Source: Chloroflexota bacterium
GTDB lineage: Bacteria > Chloroflexota > Anaerolineae > Anaerolineales > E44-bin32
Direction: 5' to 3'
Assembly: GCA_024277995.1 (NCBI GenBank)
Contig: JAJRUD010000268.1
Coordinates: 1 to 38,403, forward strand
DNA length: 38,403 nt
In this document: positions 8,130-13,600 of the stretch, in pieces
Numbering within the stretch: position 1 is the stretch's first letter
Layout of the letters: the number at the start of each line of letters is the position of its first letter
Notes under the pieces: model-generated
Seen by the model: only the letters and a program-made list of their open reading frames with translations
Told to the model about the DNA's origin: nothing
The model's database searches: none
Translations under genes and position numbers: made by a program

Positions 8130-8140
8130 GTACAGTGTAC
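8130..8140. promoter_or_regulatory. Possible operator in the divergent bkd-like/panB control region
   Basis: The perfect inverted repeat GTACA-g-TGTAC, within the wider TACA-N6-TGTA, lies just upstream of the -35 box of the minus-strand operon and 27 bp before the panB -10 box. Its position suits a regulator acting on both transcripts. It is short, so chance is possible. Confidence 0.3.
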
Positions 8141-8163
8141 CGCCTCCGGGGGCGGATTTCGCG

Positions 8164-8172
8164 TGCTATAAT
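8164..8172 (+). promoter_or_regulatory. Extended -10 promoter for panB
   Basis: TGCTATAAT is a perfect -10 hexamer with the TGn extension. No convincing -35 box is found 17 nt upstream, as is usual for extended -10 promoters. Transcription would start near 8179 and give a leader of about 120 nt before the GTG start at 8300. Confidence 0.5.
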
Positions 8173-8299
8173 TCGCGTGCCGCTTGGATCGGGCCACGAC
8201 CGAGACGGCAGGATGATGAAGTTCTACCCCTGCCCACCTGGCCCGGTGGGTCTTTTCATCTCGGGCCATTGGGCGTCTCACTCGAAGGAGGAGATAGCC

Positions 8300-9208
8300 G
8301 TGTCCGCAACCCCCATTATGACCAAGGACCGCAAGAAGGTCACCACCCTGGCCCTGCGCCGCAAGAAAGCGCGCGGCGAGCCCATCAGCATGCTCACCGC
8401 CTACGACTACGGCACCGCATTGGCCATCGACCGGGCGGGGATCGACTCCATCCTGGTGGGCGACTCGCTGGGAATGGTGGTGCTGGGCTATGAGAACACG
8501 CTGCCCGTCACCATGCAGGACATGATCCACCACTGCAAAGCGGTGGCGCGCGGGGCGCGCTACGCCCTGTTGGTGGGGGACATGCCCTTCCTCTCCTACC
8601 AGGTCTCCGTTGAAGAGGCCGTGCGCAACGCCGGGCGTTTCCTGCAGGAGGGCGGCATGGACGCCGTCAAGCTGGAGGGCGGACGCGAGCGGCTGCCGGC
8701 CATCGAGGCCATCATCGGCGCCGGCATCCCCGTCATGGGGCACCTGGGATTGACACCGCAGTCGGTGCACCTGCTGGGCGGATTCCGGACGCAGGGCAAG
8801 ACCGCCGCCGCCGCGCAGCGCCTGCTGGAAGATGCCCTGATCCTGCAGGAGGCGGGCTGCTTCGCGTTGGTGCTGGAAGCCGTCCCGGCGCAACTGGCGC
8901 TCTTGATCTCTGAACGCCTGGAGATCCCCACCATCGGCATCGGCGCCGGAGCCGGCTGCGACGGCCAGGTGCTGGTCACGCACGACCTGCTGGGCCTCTT
9001 CGACCGCTTCACACCTCGTTTCGTCAAGAAGTACGCCGACCTGCATGACGAGATGGCGCGCGCCTTCCAGGCCTACAAGGCCGAGGTGGAAACGCGCGCC
9101 TTTCCCGCGCCCGAGCACAGCGTGCAGATGGATCAGGAGGAGTGGGAGGCCTTGCTGCGCAAGTTTAGATGGGCCGAAGATGATGGGCGATCAGCAGGAA
9201 GTGATTAG
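8300..9208 (+). CDS. panB: 3-methyl-2-oxobutanoate hydroxymethyltransferase
   Basis: Makes ketopantoate from 2-oxoisovalerate and methylenetetrahydrofolate, the first committed step of pantothenate synthesis. The 302-residue barrel shows SMLTAYDYGTA, ILVGDSLGMV (Mg-binding Asp), GDMPFLSYQ, AVKLEGG, GIPVMGHLGLTPQS and the catalytic Glu region LVLEAVPAQ. The track begins at 8135, but the first 55 codons cover the promoter and leader and have no family similarity. The GTG at 8300 follows AAGGAGG with eight bases' spacing and is the real start. It is divergent from the oxoacid dehydrogenase operon, whose likely substrate is the same 2-oxoisovalerate. Confidence 0.96.
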   Translation: MSATPIMTKDRKKVTTLALRRKKARGEPISMLTAYDYGTALAIDRAGIDSILVGDSLGMVVLGYENTLPVTMQDMIHHCKAVARGARYALLVGDMPFLSYQVSVEEAVRNAGRFLQEGGMDAVKLEGGRERLPAIEAIIGAGIPVMGHLGLTPQSVHLLGGFRTQGKTAAAAQRLLEDALILQEAGCFALVLEAVPAQLALLISERLEIPTIGIGAGAGCDGQVLVTHDLLGLFDRFTPRFVKKYADLHDEMARAFQAYKAEVETRAFPAPEHSVQMDQEEWEALLRKFRWAEDDGRSAGSD

Positions 9209-9345
9209 TAAGGAGTGATCAGTTGGAAGTGATCAGGAAGAAGCGATCCTCGGGATGCCATCGGCTGGAAACCACGAGAATACTCCCGCTGATCCCTGAT
9301 CGCTGATGGCCGACTGCTGATAACTGATTGCTGTATCCCGCGAGG
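9209..9345. repeat. Degenerate inverted-repeat array between panB and panE
   Basis: The left part repeats AGTGATCAG-like units (AGTGATCAGTTGGAAGTGATC) and the right part carries the complementary type (CTGATCCCTGATCGCTGATG, then CTGATAACTGATTGC). The gap can thus fold into a long imperfect hairpin. Closely similar arrays flank coaX and coaBC. No ORF or promoter is apparent. Confidence 0.7.
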
Positions 9346-9353
9346 CAACCTCC

Positions 9354-10277
9354 ATGCCCCACCCACCCATCCTGATCGTCGGCACAGGCGCCATGGCCTG
9401 CCTCTTCGCCGCCCGGCTGGCGCCACACACCCGGGTGACCATGCTGGGAAGCTGGCCCGAGGGGCTGCGCGCCCTGCGCGAGCGGGGCGTCACCCTGGTG
9501 GAAGGCGATGGCCAGCCGATGGCGCATGCCGTCGAAGTGGCAGGGACGGCGGCCCGCTGCCGCGGCGCCCGATACGCGCTGGTGCTGGTCAAGTCCTGGC
9601 AGACAGCCAGCGCCGCGGCGCGCCTGGCGGCGTGCCTGGCCGAGGAGGGCGTGGCGCTCACCCTGCAGAACGGCCTGGGCAATCTGGAGATCTTGCAACA
9701 GGCGCTGGGCCGTGAGCGTGCCGCGCTGGGCGTGACCACATGCGGGGCCACCCTGCTCGGCCCCGGCCATGCCCGCCTGGGCGGCTCCGGCCCCACTTAC
9801 CTGGCGCGCCATCCGCGGCTGGACCCCCTGGCCGCATTGCTGGGCCAGGCCGGCTTCGAGATCCATTGGGTGGACGACCTGCAGTCCCTCTCCTGGGGCA
9901 AGCTGGCGGTGAACGCCGGCATCAATCCGCTCACCGCTTTGCTGCGCATCCCCAACGGCGCTCTGTTGGAGGACGAGGACAGCCGCGCGCTCATGATCGC
10001 CGCCGCGCAGGAGACAGCCGTCGTGGCCGCCGCCAAAGGCCTGCACCTCCCCTATCAGGACGCCGGCGCTCAGGTGGCCCAGGTGGCGCGCCGCACCGCT
10101 GCCAACCGCTCATCCATGCTGCAGGACGTGCAGCGCGGTGCGCCCACCGAGATCGACGCCATCTGCGGCGCGGTCGTGCACGAGGGTGAGCGTCTCGGCG
10201 TGCCCACGCCCGTCAACCGCACGCTCTGGCACCTGGTGCGGGCCCTGGCAGCCCGCACAGGAGGGATCGAGGCATGA
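9354..10277 (+). CDS. panE: 2-dehydropantoate 2-reductase
   Basis: NADPH-dependent reduction of ketopantoate to pantoate. The 307 residues match the family: the N-terminal dinucleotide motif ILIVGTGAMACLFAARLA, the LVLVKSWQT segment, the substrate-site LQNGLGN near 105, the catalytic Lys183 and Asn187 in SWGKLAVNAGINPLTAL, and the late NRSSMLQDVQRGAPTEID signature. The Rossmann motif reads GTGAMA rather than GxGxxG, a common tolerated form. Its stop overlaps the panC start by four bases (ATGA), so reductase and ligase are co-translated. It is separated from panB by the repeat array. Confidence 0.95.
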   Translation: MPHPPILIVGTGAMACLFAARLAPHTRVTMLGSWPEGLRALRERGVTLVEGDGQPMAHAVEVAGTAARCRGARYALVLVKSWQTASAAARLAACLAEEGVALTLQNGLGNLEILQQALGRERAALGVTTCGATLLGPGHARLGGSGPTYLARHPRLDPLAALLGQAGFEIHWVDDLQSLSWGKLAVNAGINPLTALLRIPNGALLEDEDSRALMIAAAQETAVVAAAKGLHLPYQDAGAQVAQVARRTAANRSSMLQDVQRGAPTEIDAICGAVVHEGERLGVPTPVNRTLWHLVRALAARTGGIEA

Positions 10278-11116
10278 AGACCGTGACCACTCTGGAAGAC
10301 CTGCGACGGGCGCGCGCCGCCCTGCCCGACCCCCTCGGCCTGGTCCCCACCATGGGCTTCCTGCACGAAGGGCACCTTTCCCTGGTGCGCCGCGCCCGTG
10401 CGGACTGCGCCAGCGTCGGGGTGAGCATCTTCGTCAACCCCACCCAGTTCGGCCCCCAGGAGGACCTCGATTCCTACCCGCGCGATCTGGAGCGCGACCT
10501 GGCGCTGCTGCGGGACGAGGGGGTGGACCTGGTGTGGACGCCGACGCCCGAAATCATGTACCCTCCCGGTTTCCAGACCTGGGTCACAGTGGAAGAGCTC
10601 ACCAGGCCCCTGGAGGGCGCCCGCCGGCCGGGGCATTTTCGCGGCGTGACCACCGTGGTCGCCAAGCTTCTCAACGCCTTCCAGCCTCAGCAGGCCTACT
10701 TCGGGCAGAAGGACGCCCAGCAGGCGATCGTCATCCGGCGCATGGTGCGCGACCTGAACTTCCCGCTGCAGGTGGTGGTCTGCCCCATCGTGCGCGAACC
10801 GGATGGATTGGCCATGTCCAGCCGCAACGCCTACCTGAACCCCGAGGAGCGCCGGGCGGCGACGGTGCTGCACCGGGCACTGACCGCCGCCGAGCAGGCC
10901 TTCCGGGCCGGCACCCGCGAGGCGGAGGCCCTGCGGCGCATCATGTCGCAGGTGCTCGCCGAAGAGCCGCTGGCGCGGCCGCAATACGTCTCCGCCGCCG
11001 ACCCCGAGACGCTGGAAGAACTGCAGGGGCCCGTTGAGCGGGCGCTGCTCTCCATGGCGGTGTACGTGGGCGAGACGAGGTTGATTGACAATGTGGTGGT
11101 GGGGGATAGGGGATAG
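10274..11116 (+). CDS. panC: Pantoate--beta-alanine ligase (pantothenate synthetase)
   Basis: ATP-dependent condensation of pantoate and beta-alanine to pantothenate. The 280 residues are of standard length, with the HIGH-like motif HEGH (31-34) inside VPTMGFLHEGHLSLV, FVNPTQFGPQEDL, the KDAQQ motif (146-150) in YFGQKDAQQ, and MSSRNAYL (181 onward). The start overlaps panE by ATGA. The last codons run into the GGGGATAGGGGATAGG arm of the following repeat array. No aspartate decarboxylase (panD) gene lies in the window, so beta-alanine must come from elsewhere. Confidence 0.97.
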   Translation: MKTVTTLEDLRRARAALPDPLGLVPTMGFLHEGHLSLVRRARADCASVGVSIFVNPTQFGPQEDLDSYPRDLERDLALLRDEGVDLVWTPTPEIMYPPGFQTWVTVEELTRPLEGARRPGHFRGVTTVVAKLLNAFQPQQAYFGQKDAQQAIVIRRMVRDLNFPLQVVVCPIVREPDGLAMSSRNAYLNPEERRAATVLHRALTAAEQAFRAGTREAEALRRIMSQVLAEEPLARPQYVSAADPETLEELQGPVERALLSMAVYVGETRLIDNVVVGDRG

Positions 11117-11258
11117 GTGGCCGGCAGCCAGTGATTGGTGATCAGTAATTAGGGATCAGGGCCGGAAGGGTCATAGTTTCCTGCTCCTGTATCACCGATC
11201 ACTGGCTACTGATCCCCGGTCCCTGATCACTGATCACTTATCTCCTATCTCTTTTCCC
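11098..11258. repeat. Degenerate inverted-repeat array between panC and coaX
   Basis: The left arm reads GGGGATAGGGGATAGG, then AGTGATTGGTGATCAGTAAT and GGGATCAGGG. The right arm is its approximate reverse complement: CACCGATCACTGG, CCCTGATCACTGATCAC, then TATCTCCTATCTC and TTTTCCCC. The array spans the panC stop and ends about 30 bp before coaX. It is the same repeat type as at 9209-9345 and 20798-20920. Confidence 0.75.
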
Positions 11259-11290
11259 CATCTTGCTGCCATTCCGAAGGAGGCCTTCCC

Positions 11291-12055
11291 ATGCTCCTCA
11301 CCATCGATGTCGGCAACACCAACATCACGCTCGGGCTGTACGAGGGGGAGGATCGATTCGCCGCCTGGCGGCTGGCCACCGTGCACGAGCGCATGCCCGA
11401 CGAGTACGGCCTGCAACTGCTCGGTCTGCTGCAGCACGCCGGCTGCGAGCCGGAGGACATCCACGGCACGGTCATGGCTTCCGTCGTGCCGCCCCTGACC
11501 ACCACATTCCTGCAGGCCTGCAAGGACTATCTGGACCAGGACCCGCTGGTGGTGGACGCCGGAGTCCGCACGGGCGTGCACATCCGCTACGAGGACCCCA
11601 AGTCCGTGGGAGCCGATCGTGTGGTGGACGCGGCCGCCGTACAGCGCCTCTACGGCGGCCCGGCCTGCGTGGTGGACTTCGGCACTGCCACCACCTTCGA
11701 CGCCATCTCCGCCGAGGGGGACTACTTGGGAGGCGCCATTGCCCCGGGGATCAGCATCGCCGCCGAGGCGCTCTTCATGCGCACTGCCAAGCTGCCGCGC
11801 GTCGATCTGGCCCGCCCTCCTTCGCCCATCGGCCGCAACACGGTGCACGCTATCCAATCAGGCCTGCTCTTCGGCTACGTGAGCCTGGTGGAGGGGATGG
11901 TGGCCCGCTTCCGCGGCGAGTTGGGGCCGGAGATGAAGGTCATCGGCACCGGGGGACTGGCGGAGCTCATGGCGCGCGAGACACGCGTCATCGAGATCCT
12001 GGCCCCCTGGCTCACCCTCGACGGCCTGCGCATCATCTGGGAACTCAACCAGTAG
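11291..12055 (+). CDS. coaX: Type III pantothenate kinase
   Basis: Phosphorylates pantothenate, the first step from vitamin B5 to CoA. It is an ASKHA-fold kinase of 254 residues, usual for CoaX. The N-terminal phosphate motif is IDVGNTN (5-11), GADR (107-110) contacts pantothenate, and the second phosphate motif is DFGTATTFD (129-137), followed by GGAIAPGI. CoaX enzymes need a monovalent cation and are insensitive to CoA feedback; both are family knowledge. The start has AAGGAGG ten bases upstream. It completes the panB-panE-panC-coaX run. Confidence 0.97.
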   Translation: MLLTIDVGNTNITLGLYEGEDRFAAWRLATVHERMPDEYGLQLLGLLQHAGCEPEDIHGTVMASVVPPLTTTFLQACKDYLDQDPLVVDAGVRTGVHIRYEDPKSVGADRVVDAAAVQRLYGGPACVVDFGTATTFDAISAEGDYLGGAIAPGISIAAEALFMRTAKLPRVDLARPPSPIGRNTVHAIQSGLLFGYVSLVEGMVARFRGELGPEMKVIGTGGLAELMARETRVIEILAPWLTLDGLRIIWELNQ

Positions 12056-12338
12056 CGGGGGTATCCCGCCGCGCGCTGCAGGACATCTGCCCCCGGAGGC
12101 GAGCGACGTTCTGCGGCAGCTCGAGGAATTCCAGCCCGCAGCGGGGAGGGCGCGCCTGATGGCCCGCTCCCGCACTTGGCGCTCCGATCCTCTCACGGCC
12201 GGGCTGGAGGGAACCTCTTTCCGCGCGCGCCGTGCCTCCACAGCCAGGCACCGGATGCGCACCCGGTGCCTCGCCCACATAGGCATCGACAGCGGCAGAG
12301 CCGGATTCCATTTCACAAAAGGCCCTCCCGTTGGTTAA

Positions 12339-12887
12339 ATGGGTGAGACTCATTCCCACAGCGAGCGCAGCATGAGCGAGCCGCTCTTCGAAAATCTGGT
12401 GGAAACCCACAGCCCGGAGTTGTTCAGCTACCTGTGGCGCATGACACGCTGCGAGCAGGACGCCGAGGACTGCCTGCAGGAAACCTTGCTGCGTGCCTAT
12501 CGCGCCTACCCGCGCCTGCAGCCGGGTTCCAACCTCCGGGCCTGGCTTTACGCCATCGCCACCAATGTCGCCCGCAGCCACCTGCGCCGGGCACGGCGTC
12601 ACATCGCCCACAGCGCCGAAGTCGACCCGCAGACCCTGCGCAAGCATGGCCCCTCTATCCCGGAATCCTTCTTGCGAGCAGAACTGCTTCAGCAGATCGC
12701 GCGAGCCGTGGATGCACTGCCCCACAAGCAGCGCGCTGCGCTCATCATGCGCAAGTATCAGGGCCTGAGCTACGCGGCCATCGGCGGCGCCCTCGGCTGC
12801 TCAGCCGCTGCGGCGCGGGCCGATGTCTACCAGGGGCTCAAGAAGCTGCGGGCGCGCTTCGCCCCCCACCAGGAGGACCGGTCATGA
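12339..12887 (+). CDS. ECF (RpoE-like) RNA polymerase sigma factor
   Basis: Alternative sigma factor of 182 residues. Region 2 is clear (LFSYLWRMTRCEQDAEDCLQ, then LRAWLYAIATNVARSHLRR) and region 4 has a helix-turn-helix (LPHKQRAALIMRKYQGLSYA, AIGGALGCS, LKKLR). Regions 1.1 and 3 are absent, as expected for the ECF group. Two starts are possible, ATG at 12339 or ATG at 12372 (MSEPLFEN); neither has a strong Shine-Dalgarno. No zinc-type anti-sigma gene follows. Instead the stop codon overlaps the start of an alkyltransferase gene (ATGA), so the two proteins are made together. The 280-bp gap after coaX has no convincing gene and no clear promoter. Confidence 0.93.
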   Translation: MGETHSHSERSMSEPLFENLVETHSPELFSYLWRMTRCEQDAEDCLQETLLRAYRAYPRLQPGSNLRAWLYAIATNVARSHLRRARRHIAHSAEVDPQTLRKHGPSIPESFLRAELLQQIARAVDALPHKQRAALIMRKYQGLSYAAIGGALGCSAAAARADVYQGLKKLRARFAPHQEDRS

Positions 12888-13600
12888 TGCAGCGATCCGC
12901 GCTAGAGGACAACTGGGCCCGCTGGCTCGGGGACGAACCCGGCCCGGTCCGCAGCGAACCGCTGCTCGAAGCGCTGGACGGCCTCCATGCCGCAGAGCCC
13001 GGCCGGGCAGCGGCGGCCCGCGCCGTGCGCAAGACGCGCGCCGCCCTGGACCGCGCCCGCCCCAACGCGCTCTTCTTCGACACCTTCCCCGACTCGCCCC
13101 TCGGCCCGCTGCATATCGCCGTCAGCGAGCGGGGCGTGGTCGCCCTGTCCTTCGGCCGGCCGCTGAGCCGCTTCCTCGAAGAATTGCAGCGTTGGACGGG
13201 GCTGACCCCGGTGCATGACCAGTCACGAGTCGCCCGGGCGGGCCGCCAGGTGCAGGAGTATCTGGCCGGCGAGCGGGCGGTCTTCGACCTGCCCCTCGAC
13301 CTGCGCCTGCTGACCCCCTTCCAGCGCCAGGTGCTGCAGCGCGTGGCAGCCCTGCCCCGCGGCCAGATCGCCACCTACGGCCAGGTGGCAGGTTGGCTGG
13401 GCAAGCCGCGCGCCGCCCGCGCCGTGGGCCAGGCCCTGGCGCGCAACCCCATCCCGCTCGTCATCCCCTGTCACCGCGTGCTGGCCTCCGACGGCTCGCT
13501 GGGCGGCTACTCCGGCGGCCGCGGCCTGCCCACCAAGCTGCGCCTGCTGCGTATGGAGGGCGCCCCCATAGATTCACTCGGAAGAGCACCCCAGCGCTGA
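12884..13600 (+). CDS. ogt: O6-alkylguanine-DNA alkyltransferase with N-terminal extension
   Basis: Suicide DNA-repair protein that transfers the alkyl group from O6-alkylguanine to its own cysteine. The catalytic domain holds PCHRVL with acceptor Cys196, the DNA-binding helix with arginine finger near KPRAARAVGQALARNP, and SDGSLGGYSGG. The first 60 residues (helical, Ala/Arg-rich, no cysteine, for example RAAAARAVRKTRAALDRAR) precede the usual domain start FFDTFPDSPLGPL and are not typical of Ogt. The track ORF begins 150 codons earlier inside the sigma gene; the real start is the ATG at 12884, with AGGAGG seven bases upstream. Coupling to the ECF sigma gene suggests an alkylation-responsive unit (inference). 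Confidence 0.93.
   Translation: MMQRSALEDNWARWLGDEPGPVRSEPLLEALDGLHAAEPGRAAAARAVRKTRAALDRARPNALFFDTFPDSPLGPLHIAVSERGVVALSFGRPLSRFLEELQRWTGLTPVHDQSRVARAGRQVQEYLAGERAVFDLPLDLRLLTPFQRQVLQRVAALPRGQIATYGQVAGWLGKPRAARAVGQALARNPIPLVIPCHRVLASDGSLGGYSGGRGLPTKLRLLRMEGAPIDSLGRAPQR

Follow-up and report, generated by a model that had tools for sequence, protein, structure and literature searches.

We analyzed a 38,403-nt stretch of DNA (the window), contig JAJRUD010000268.1 of a Chloroflexota bacterium with relatives in Anaerolineae (GCA_024277995.1; genome of 3.36 Mb, 86% complete). It carries a gene for an ECF sigma factor directly followed by ogt, which codes for an O6-alkylguanine-DNA alkyltransferase with an N-terminal extension (Table 1). 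The earlier note had described an ATGA overlap between the two genes. This is real, with the ogt ATG at 12884 overlapping the sigma stop codon (TGA, 12885 to 12887), and both genes were found where they had been located. The start of the sigma gene had to be corrected. It had been set at 12339 and was moved to the ATG at 12372, almost certainly the true start, because the ATG at 12339 overlaps the -10 element of a promoter and because homologues align from 12372. The ogt start codon follows a good ribosome-binding site, indicating that the N-terminal extension is translated.

Table 1. Features of the sigma-ogt locus (positions refer to the window).
Feature	Position	Strand	Description
Operon promoter	12311..12339	+	-35-like TTTCAC (12311-12316), 17-base spacer, -10-like GTTAAA (12334-12339)
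ECF sigma factor gene	12372..12887	+	171 aa; sigma2 (acidic AED motif intact) and sigma4
Ribosome-binding site of ogt, AGGAGG	12871..12876	+	within the end of the sigma gene; 7 bases 5' of ATG 12884
ogt, O6-alkylguanine-DNA alkyltransferase with N-terminal extension	12884..13600	+	238 aa; ATGA overlap with the sigma gene
N-terminal extension of Ogt, residues 1-62	12884..13069	+	proposed zinc-less anti-sigma domain
Cys196 codon	13469..13471	+	alkyl acceptor in PCHRV; sole cysteine of the window Ogt

The gene downstream of ogt looks by eye like one for an EamA-like transporter; its reading frame runs from 13778 and is well separated from ogt. Upstream of the sigma gene, on the same strand, comes a run of frames (8135-12055) resembling panB, a ketopantoate-reductase-type gene, panC and coaX, which by eye looks like a pantothenate/coenzyme A gene cluster. 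As the downstream gene is well away and coaX lies upstream, the operon probably comprises the sigma gene and ogt only. The locus has no zinc-type anti-sigma gene, in agreement with the earlier note.

In Pfam searches the sigma protein matched Sigma70_r2 (74.3 bits) and Sigma70_r4_2 (50.6 bits). Its composition of sigma2 and sigma4 only, with an acidic motif in region 2.2, is that of an ECF sigma factor. The motif reads AED-C-LQE, and D33 was invariant across 23 sequences. Cys34 in region 2.2 (AEDCLQE), beside this polymerase-binding acidic motif, was nearly invariant (22/23). The window sigma was 38 to 56% identical to the products of sigma genes adjoining extended Ogts.

The Ogt core matched PF01035 (105.7 bits) and PF02870 (36.5 bits), both domains being found from residue 68. 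N188, P195-C196-H197-R198 and E225 were invariant in 25 sequences, and R179 was nearly invariant (Gln in L031). The protein thus has the PCHRV cysteine, arginine finger, hinge asparagine and catalytic glutamate of an O6-alkylguanine-DNA alkyltransferase, and it is the single copy found in the genome. Ogts with a single cysteine were also frequent among the sigma-linked relatives (31/37 of the Anaerolineae type and 13/13 of the short type). The window Ogt has neither an Ada_Zn_binding domain nor an AraC-type helix-turn-helix and hence is not an Ada regulator, and the Ada zinc domain PF02805 was not found anywhere in the 86%-complete genome assembly.

The extra N-terminal residues, estimated at about 60 in the earlier note, number about 62 and are missing from Ogts without a sigma gene. 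They had been called helical and basic; an AlphaFold model of a relative supports the former, whereas the charges are nearly balanced, with 10 Arg/Lys against 9 Asp/Glu in residues 1-62. The extension features a WL helix, an LDxLYA helix and a GP...A(Q/V)xxLRxAL helix. All 24 sigma-linked relatives retain it; P39 does not vary among them, and L31 and A47 hardly do. In some lineages it spans just 35 to 40 residues or so, which is short for a domain that would need to cover both sigma2 and sigma4. We found no Pfam match within residues 1-62 of the window Ogt, and specifically neither a zf-HC2 match nor a cysteine that could contribute to an HxxxCxxC motif. The extension was also considered as a degenerate zinc anti-sigma domain, but hhalign and HMM comparisons with shuffled controls gave nothing significant, the resemblance of its last helix (A..LR.AL) to the zinc anti-sigma counterpart being visible by eye only. 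The zinc-less extension is therefore proposed to act like an anti-sigma domain, not to belong to the zinc anti-sigma class.

The association of the extension with a sigma gene, set beforehand as a test, was assessed in 100 related genomes and the window, counting the extended Ogts that could be read. A sigma gene lay immediately upstream of all 25 extended Ogts, window included, but of none of the 23 others (P = 3e-14, relatedness ignored). Twenty-two of the latter have no comparable extension, and the last one (L115) is fused by eye to an AraC-type helix-turn-helix, an Ada-like arrangement in a relative with no adjoining sigma gene. Several genomes carry one Ogt of each kind, and the pairing of extension and sigma gene holds within them. 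The overlap between the two genes is mostly 4 or 8 bases among the extended-Ogt loci, ATGA being the commonest form in the loci found from the sigma side; no fused sigma-Ogt gene appeared among the overlap distances.

A sigma-first search of 85,462 species gave consistent results, with such an Ogt next door in 70 of the best 80 loci. The other 10 comprise 2 at a contig edge and 8 with Clostridial sigmas of approximately 30% identity. In an independent phylum-wide sample, such an Ogt was found behind the sigma gene in 17 of 18 loci. The pairing occurs in Chloroflexota, Actinomycetota, Binatota, Gemmatimonadota, Acidobacteriota and other phyla, at sigma identities down to some 36 to 40%. One such operon, a Binatota-like sigma gene with a zinc-Ogt-Ada gene, is in a record filed as a Klebsiella pneumoniae MAG (L079; CAMBFS010000032.1), probably mislabelled or contaminated. 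The arrangement of a sigma gene with an extended ogt is far beyond chance. Sigma distances correlate with extension distances (r = 0.81 over 37 pairs), as they do with Ogt core distances (0.79), and the former correlation could come from shared ancestry alone. Trees of the Ogts neither supported nor contradicted a single origin of the sigma-linked forms. Among the 101 genomes, the 27 with a sigma-ogt operon and the 13 with ada shared no member, against 3.5 expected (P = 0.013, relatedness ignored), as would be expected if both systems do the same job.

We found a conserved promoter motif upstream of these operons. The Anaerolineae-type consensus is TTTCAC-N17-GTTATA, with GTTAAA, GTTTTA and GTCTTA as variants and a spacer of 17 or 18, and in nearly all Anaerolineae-type operons it lies 6 to 63 bases 5' of the aligned sigma start. 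Of 41 related sigma genes, 32 had the strict motif in their upstream region, compared with 0.005 expected from shuffles. In the group with short extensions, TCAC-N18-20-GTN occurred in 16/16 upstream regions (0.69 expected). The window motif is unique in its 3.36-Mb genome, even allowing one mismatch, so that a search for a wider regulon across that genome yielded none. In 101 genomes the strict pattern gave 15 matches, 12 of them at this type of sigma gene; the off-sigma matches, in G008, G065 and G095, look like chance rather than regulon members (G008 and G065 inspected). The conservation of the promoter and its uniqueness in the genome imply autoregulation. As judged from sequence, the locus thus looks like an autoregulated ECF operon with a group-specific upstream promoter.

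The slot occupied by the extension can hold other domains. In sigma-linked Ogts of Binatota, of the Chloroflexota locus L158 and of MAGs labelled Desulfurellaceae, Gemmatimonadetes, Acidobacteria and Proteobacteria, an HxxxCxxC zinc domain is found there. The Pfam model zf-HC2 is typical of zinc anti-sigma factors. With a cut-off of 22.2 bits, it scored 24.8 and 22.6 bits on N-terminal fragments of L103 and L098, more weakly on the other zinc-type Ogts, and just under the cut-off on the whole proteins (20.8 and 19.9 bits, respectively). In the distant Clostridial loci (sigmas about 30% identical), a classical zf-HC2 membrane anti-sigma gene lies directly behind the sigma gene, and the profile of the HxxxCxxC Ogt domain matched these anti-sigma factors in hhalign (89.8%, E = 1.8e-6, 48 columns). 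The sole locus without an Ogt in the phylum-wide sample, L171, has in that slot a membrane protein with HxxxCxxC and no Pfam match.

Eleven related sigma-linked Ogts carry an Ada_Zn_binding domain (PF02805) at the C terminus, with scores of 28.9 to 48.2 bits (cut-off 23 bits). Through this domain E. coli Ada accepts methyl groups from phosphotriesters (PMC4437013), and the fusions tie the sigma-ogt operon to a predicted function in alkylation sensing. From the zinc-type and Ada-type fusions together, one operon type thus appears to unite a sigma factor and Ogt with an anti-sigma-like domain and a sensor of alkylation. The replacement of the extension by zinc domains, together with the sensor fusions, is the strongest evidence for its putative anti-sigma role. 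A third combination of modules was seen in two sigma-linked Ada-sensor Ogts with a short extension devoid of zinc ligands (L078:645-1445 and L082:3468-4274). A Chloroflexota Ogt (L157:797-1504, minus strand) has an extension with a CPDCEH motif, a last helix like that of the window type and no Pfam match in that region; it is possibly an intermediate between the zinc and zinc-less forms.

Structure models were obtained by using a relative, L033, in which the sigma gene and ogt share a frame. Reading the stop codons as Gln gave one artificial chain of 418 residues, which was modelled with AlphaFold from a 42-row alignment; some Ogt rows in it have the start of the extension misplaced. A combined alignment of 88 rows was discarded, as MAFFT had placed Ogt rows over sigma. 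The read-through model (pLDDT 85, pTM 0.63) has three helices in the region of the linker and extension. In Foldseek comparisons its sigma part best matched sigma factors bound to RsiW and NepR (5wur, TM 0.73; 5uxx, TM 0.70), as opposed to TM values of 0.37 to 0.45 with holoenzyme-bound sigmas and of 0.38 with AlgU-MucA. The window sigma modelled alone (pLDDT 90, pTM 0.49) did not adopt the anti-sigma-bound arrangement (0.42 to 0.46). In these models, therefore, sigma takes an arrangement like the anti-sigma-bound one only with Ogt attached, a suggestive result given the artificial tether, the lack of PAE and a control from another species.

The best reading of these data is an Ogt that senses alkylation and acts as the anti-sigma factor, in a split analogue of Ada. 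The earlier note had given Ogt the place and role of an anti-sigma factor, with the extension facing sigma. This proposal survived the refuting condition that the note had set, conservation of the extension in homologues beside the sigma gene, and gained partial support from the linkage, the zf-HC2 and Ada fusions, the promoter and the model; sigma binding, inhibition and release by alkylation are what we infer. It is likely, in our estimate, that the operon forms a self-contained, autoregulated alkylation switch, in which the Ogt extension inhibits sigma and alkylation of Cys196 frees it. The sigma factor would transcribe its own operon from TTTCAC-N17-GTTAWA, and Ogt, which is also predicted to be active in repair, would bind it through the extension and keep it off RNA polymerase. 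Once Cys196 had accepted an alkyl group, Ogt would change shape, unfold or be degraded. Its loss would free sigma, and both proteins would be made in greater amounts until unreacted Ogt was back in excess and shut sigma off again. Conformational change, unfolding and degradation are known fates of reacted alkyltransferases (PMC4605297), so that the release of sigma would need no extra part.

It may be that Ogt is an anti-sigma factor that responds to something other than alkylation of Cys196, such as binding to DNA or to a lesion, proteolysis, temperature or some other stress, repair being the output. The positional evidence all fits this equally well, and zinc-type anti-sigma factors, which often sense redox, have counterparts among the relatives. 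We nevertheless consider it unlikely, since Cys196 is the sole cysteine of the window Ogt and leaves no other obvious entry for a chemical signal, the catalytic residues are conserved, and eleven relatives have an Ada-type sensor domain fused to Ogt. That ogt is simply a target of a sigma factor that drives its own gene but is controlled from elsewhere, with an extension that serves folding, localization or DNA binding, appears less probable still. Such a scheme agrees with the autoregulatory appearance of the promoter, but it leaves unexplained why the extension is restricted to sigma-linked Ogts, why zf-HC2-like domains sit in its slot in related operons and why there is no other anti-sigma gene.

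The sign of the regulation might also be the opposite, with the extension recruiting or activating sigma and an alkylated or DNA-bound Ogt delivering it to the polymerase. This two-protein activator would be nearer to Ada, which activates once methylated (PMC4437013). The inhibitor-type domains in the same slot of zinc-type relatives and Clostridial sigma loci, and the inhibitor-bound-like arrangement of sigma in the model, make it very improbable. As for adjacency by chance or lineage without functional coupling, many relatives do come from one phylum and kinship inflates the counts, but a pairing that crosses many phyla, at sigma identities as low as approximately 36 to 40%, makes this explanation barely credible.

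The pairing itself is not new, since ECF122 has already been catalogued with a methyltransferase neighbor. In a 2022 review (PMC8999054, citing the ECF reclassification by Casas-Pastor et al., 2021), ECF122 is described as having no anti-sigma factor, a conserved 6-O-methylguanine DNA methyltransferase neighbor and an "unknown mechanism". The window resembles it by gene context alone, with a sigma gene next to a 6-O-methylguanine methyltransferase gene and no recognized anti-sigma gene. The example listed there is from Cellulomonas (Actinomycetota), a phylum represented here by the sigma-Ogt pairs L093, L100 and L110. The review mentions neither the extension nor the promoter, nor does it refer to an anti-sigma role or to fusions with zf-HC2 or the Ada sensor. 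Beyond it, our literature search returned nothing on the extension, fusions, promoter or Ogt as an anti-sigma factor; the supplement of the original ECF122 paper may say more. New here are the zf-HC2-like and Ada-sensor fusions, the linkage between extension and sigma, and the promoter.

Like E. coli Ada, the proposed switch relies on a suicide alkyl acceptor that governs transcription of its own gene. The zinc sensor domain of Ada is present in some related sigma-linked Ogts but absent from the window Ogt. In contrast with Ada, the window system has no AraC-type DNA-binding domain and would act via a separate sigma factor, through the loss of an inhibitor instead of the gain of an activator. 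Class I zinc anti-sigma factors (zf-HC2; ChrR, RsiW and RshA type) occupy the same slot directly behind the sigma gene, and the fusion of a zf-HC2-like domain to Ogt in relatives parallels that of zf-HC2 to other sensor modules; the window extension differs from them in lacking zinc ligands and shows no detectable similarity to them in sequence. Class II proteins such as CnrY and NepR are short and zinc-less and hold sigma2 and sigma4 with a few short helices, and the sigma part of the L033 model resembles NepR-bound RpoE, although the window helices are attached to an enzyme.

We somewhat favor the broader view that Ogt, a suicide repair enzyme, doubles as an anti-sigma factor of which one molecule is lost per repair, damage being titrated into ECF-sigma-dependent transcription, and that this is a widespread sigma-based counterpart of Ada where Ada is missing. 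If true, it would amount to an Ada-free adaptive response to DNA alkylation, in which a single enzyme repairs damage, counts it and inhibits sigma. The promoter, sigma factor and inhibitor would form an orthogonal alkylation-responsive set for which O6-benzylguanine-type ligands could be inducers. It would also supply a mechanism for the ECF group listed with an "unknown mechanism" in the 2022 review and explain how bacteria devoid of Ada could induce alkylation repair.
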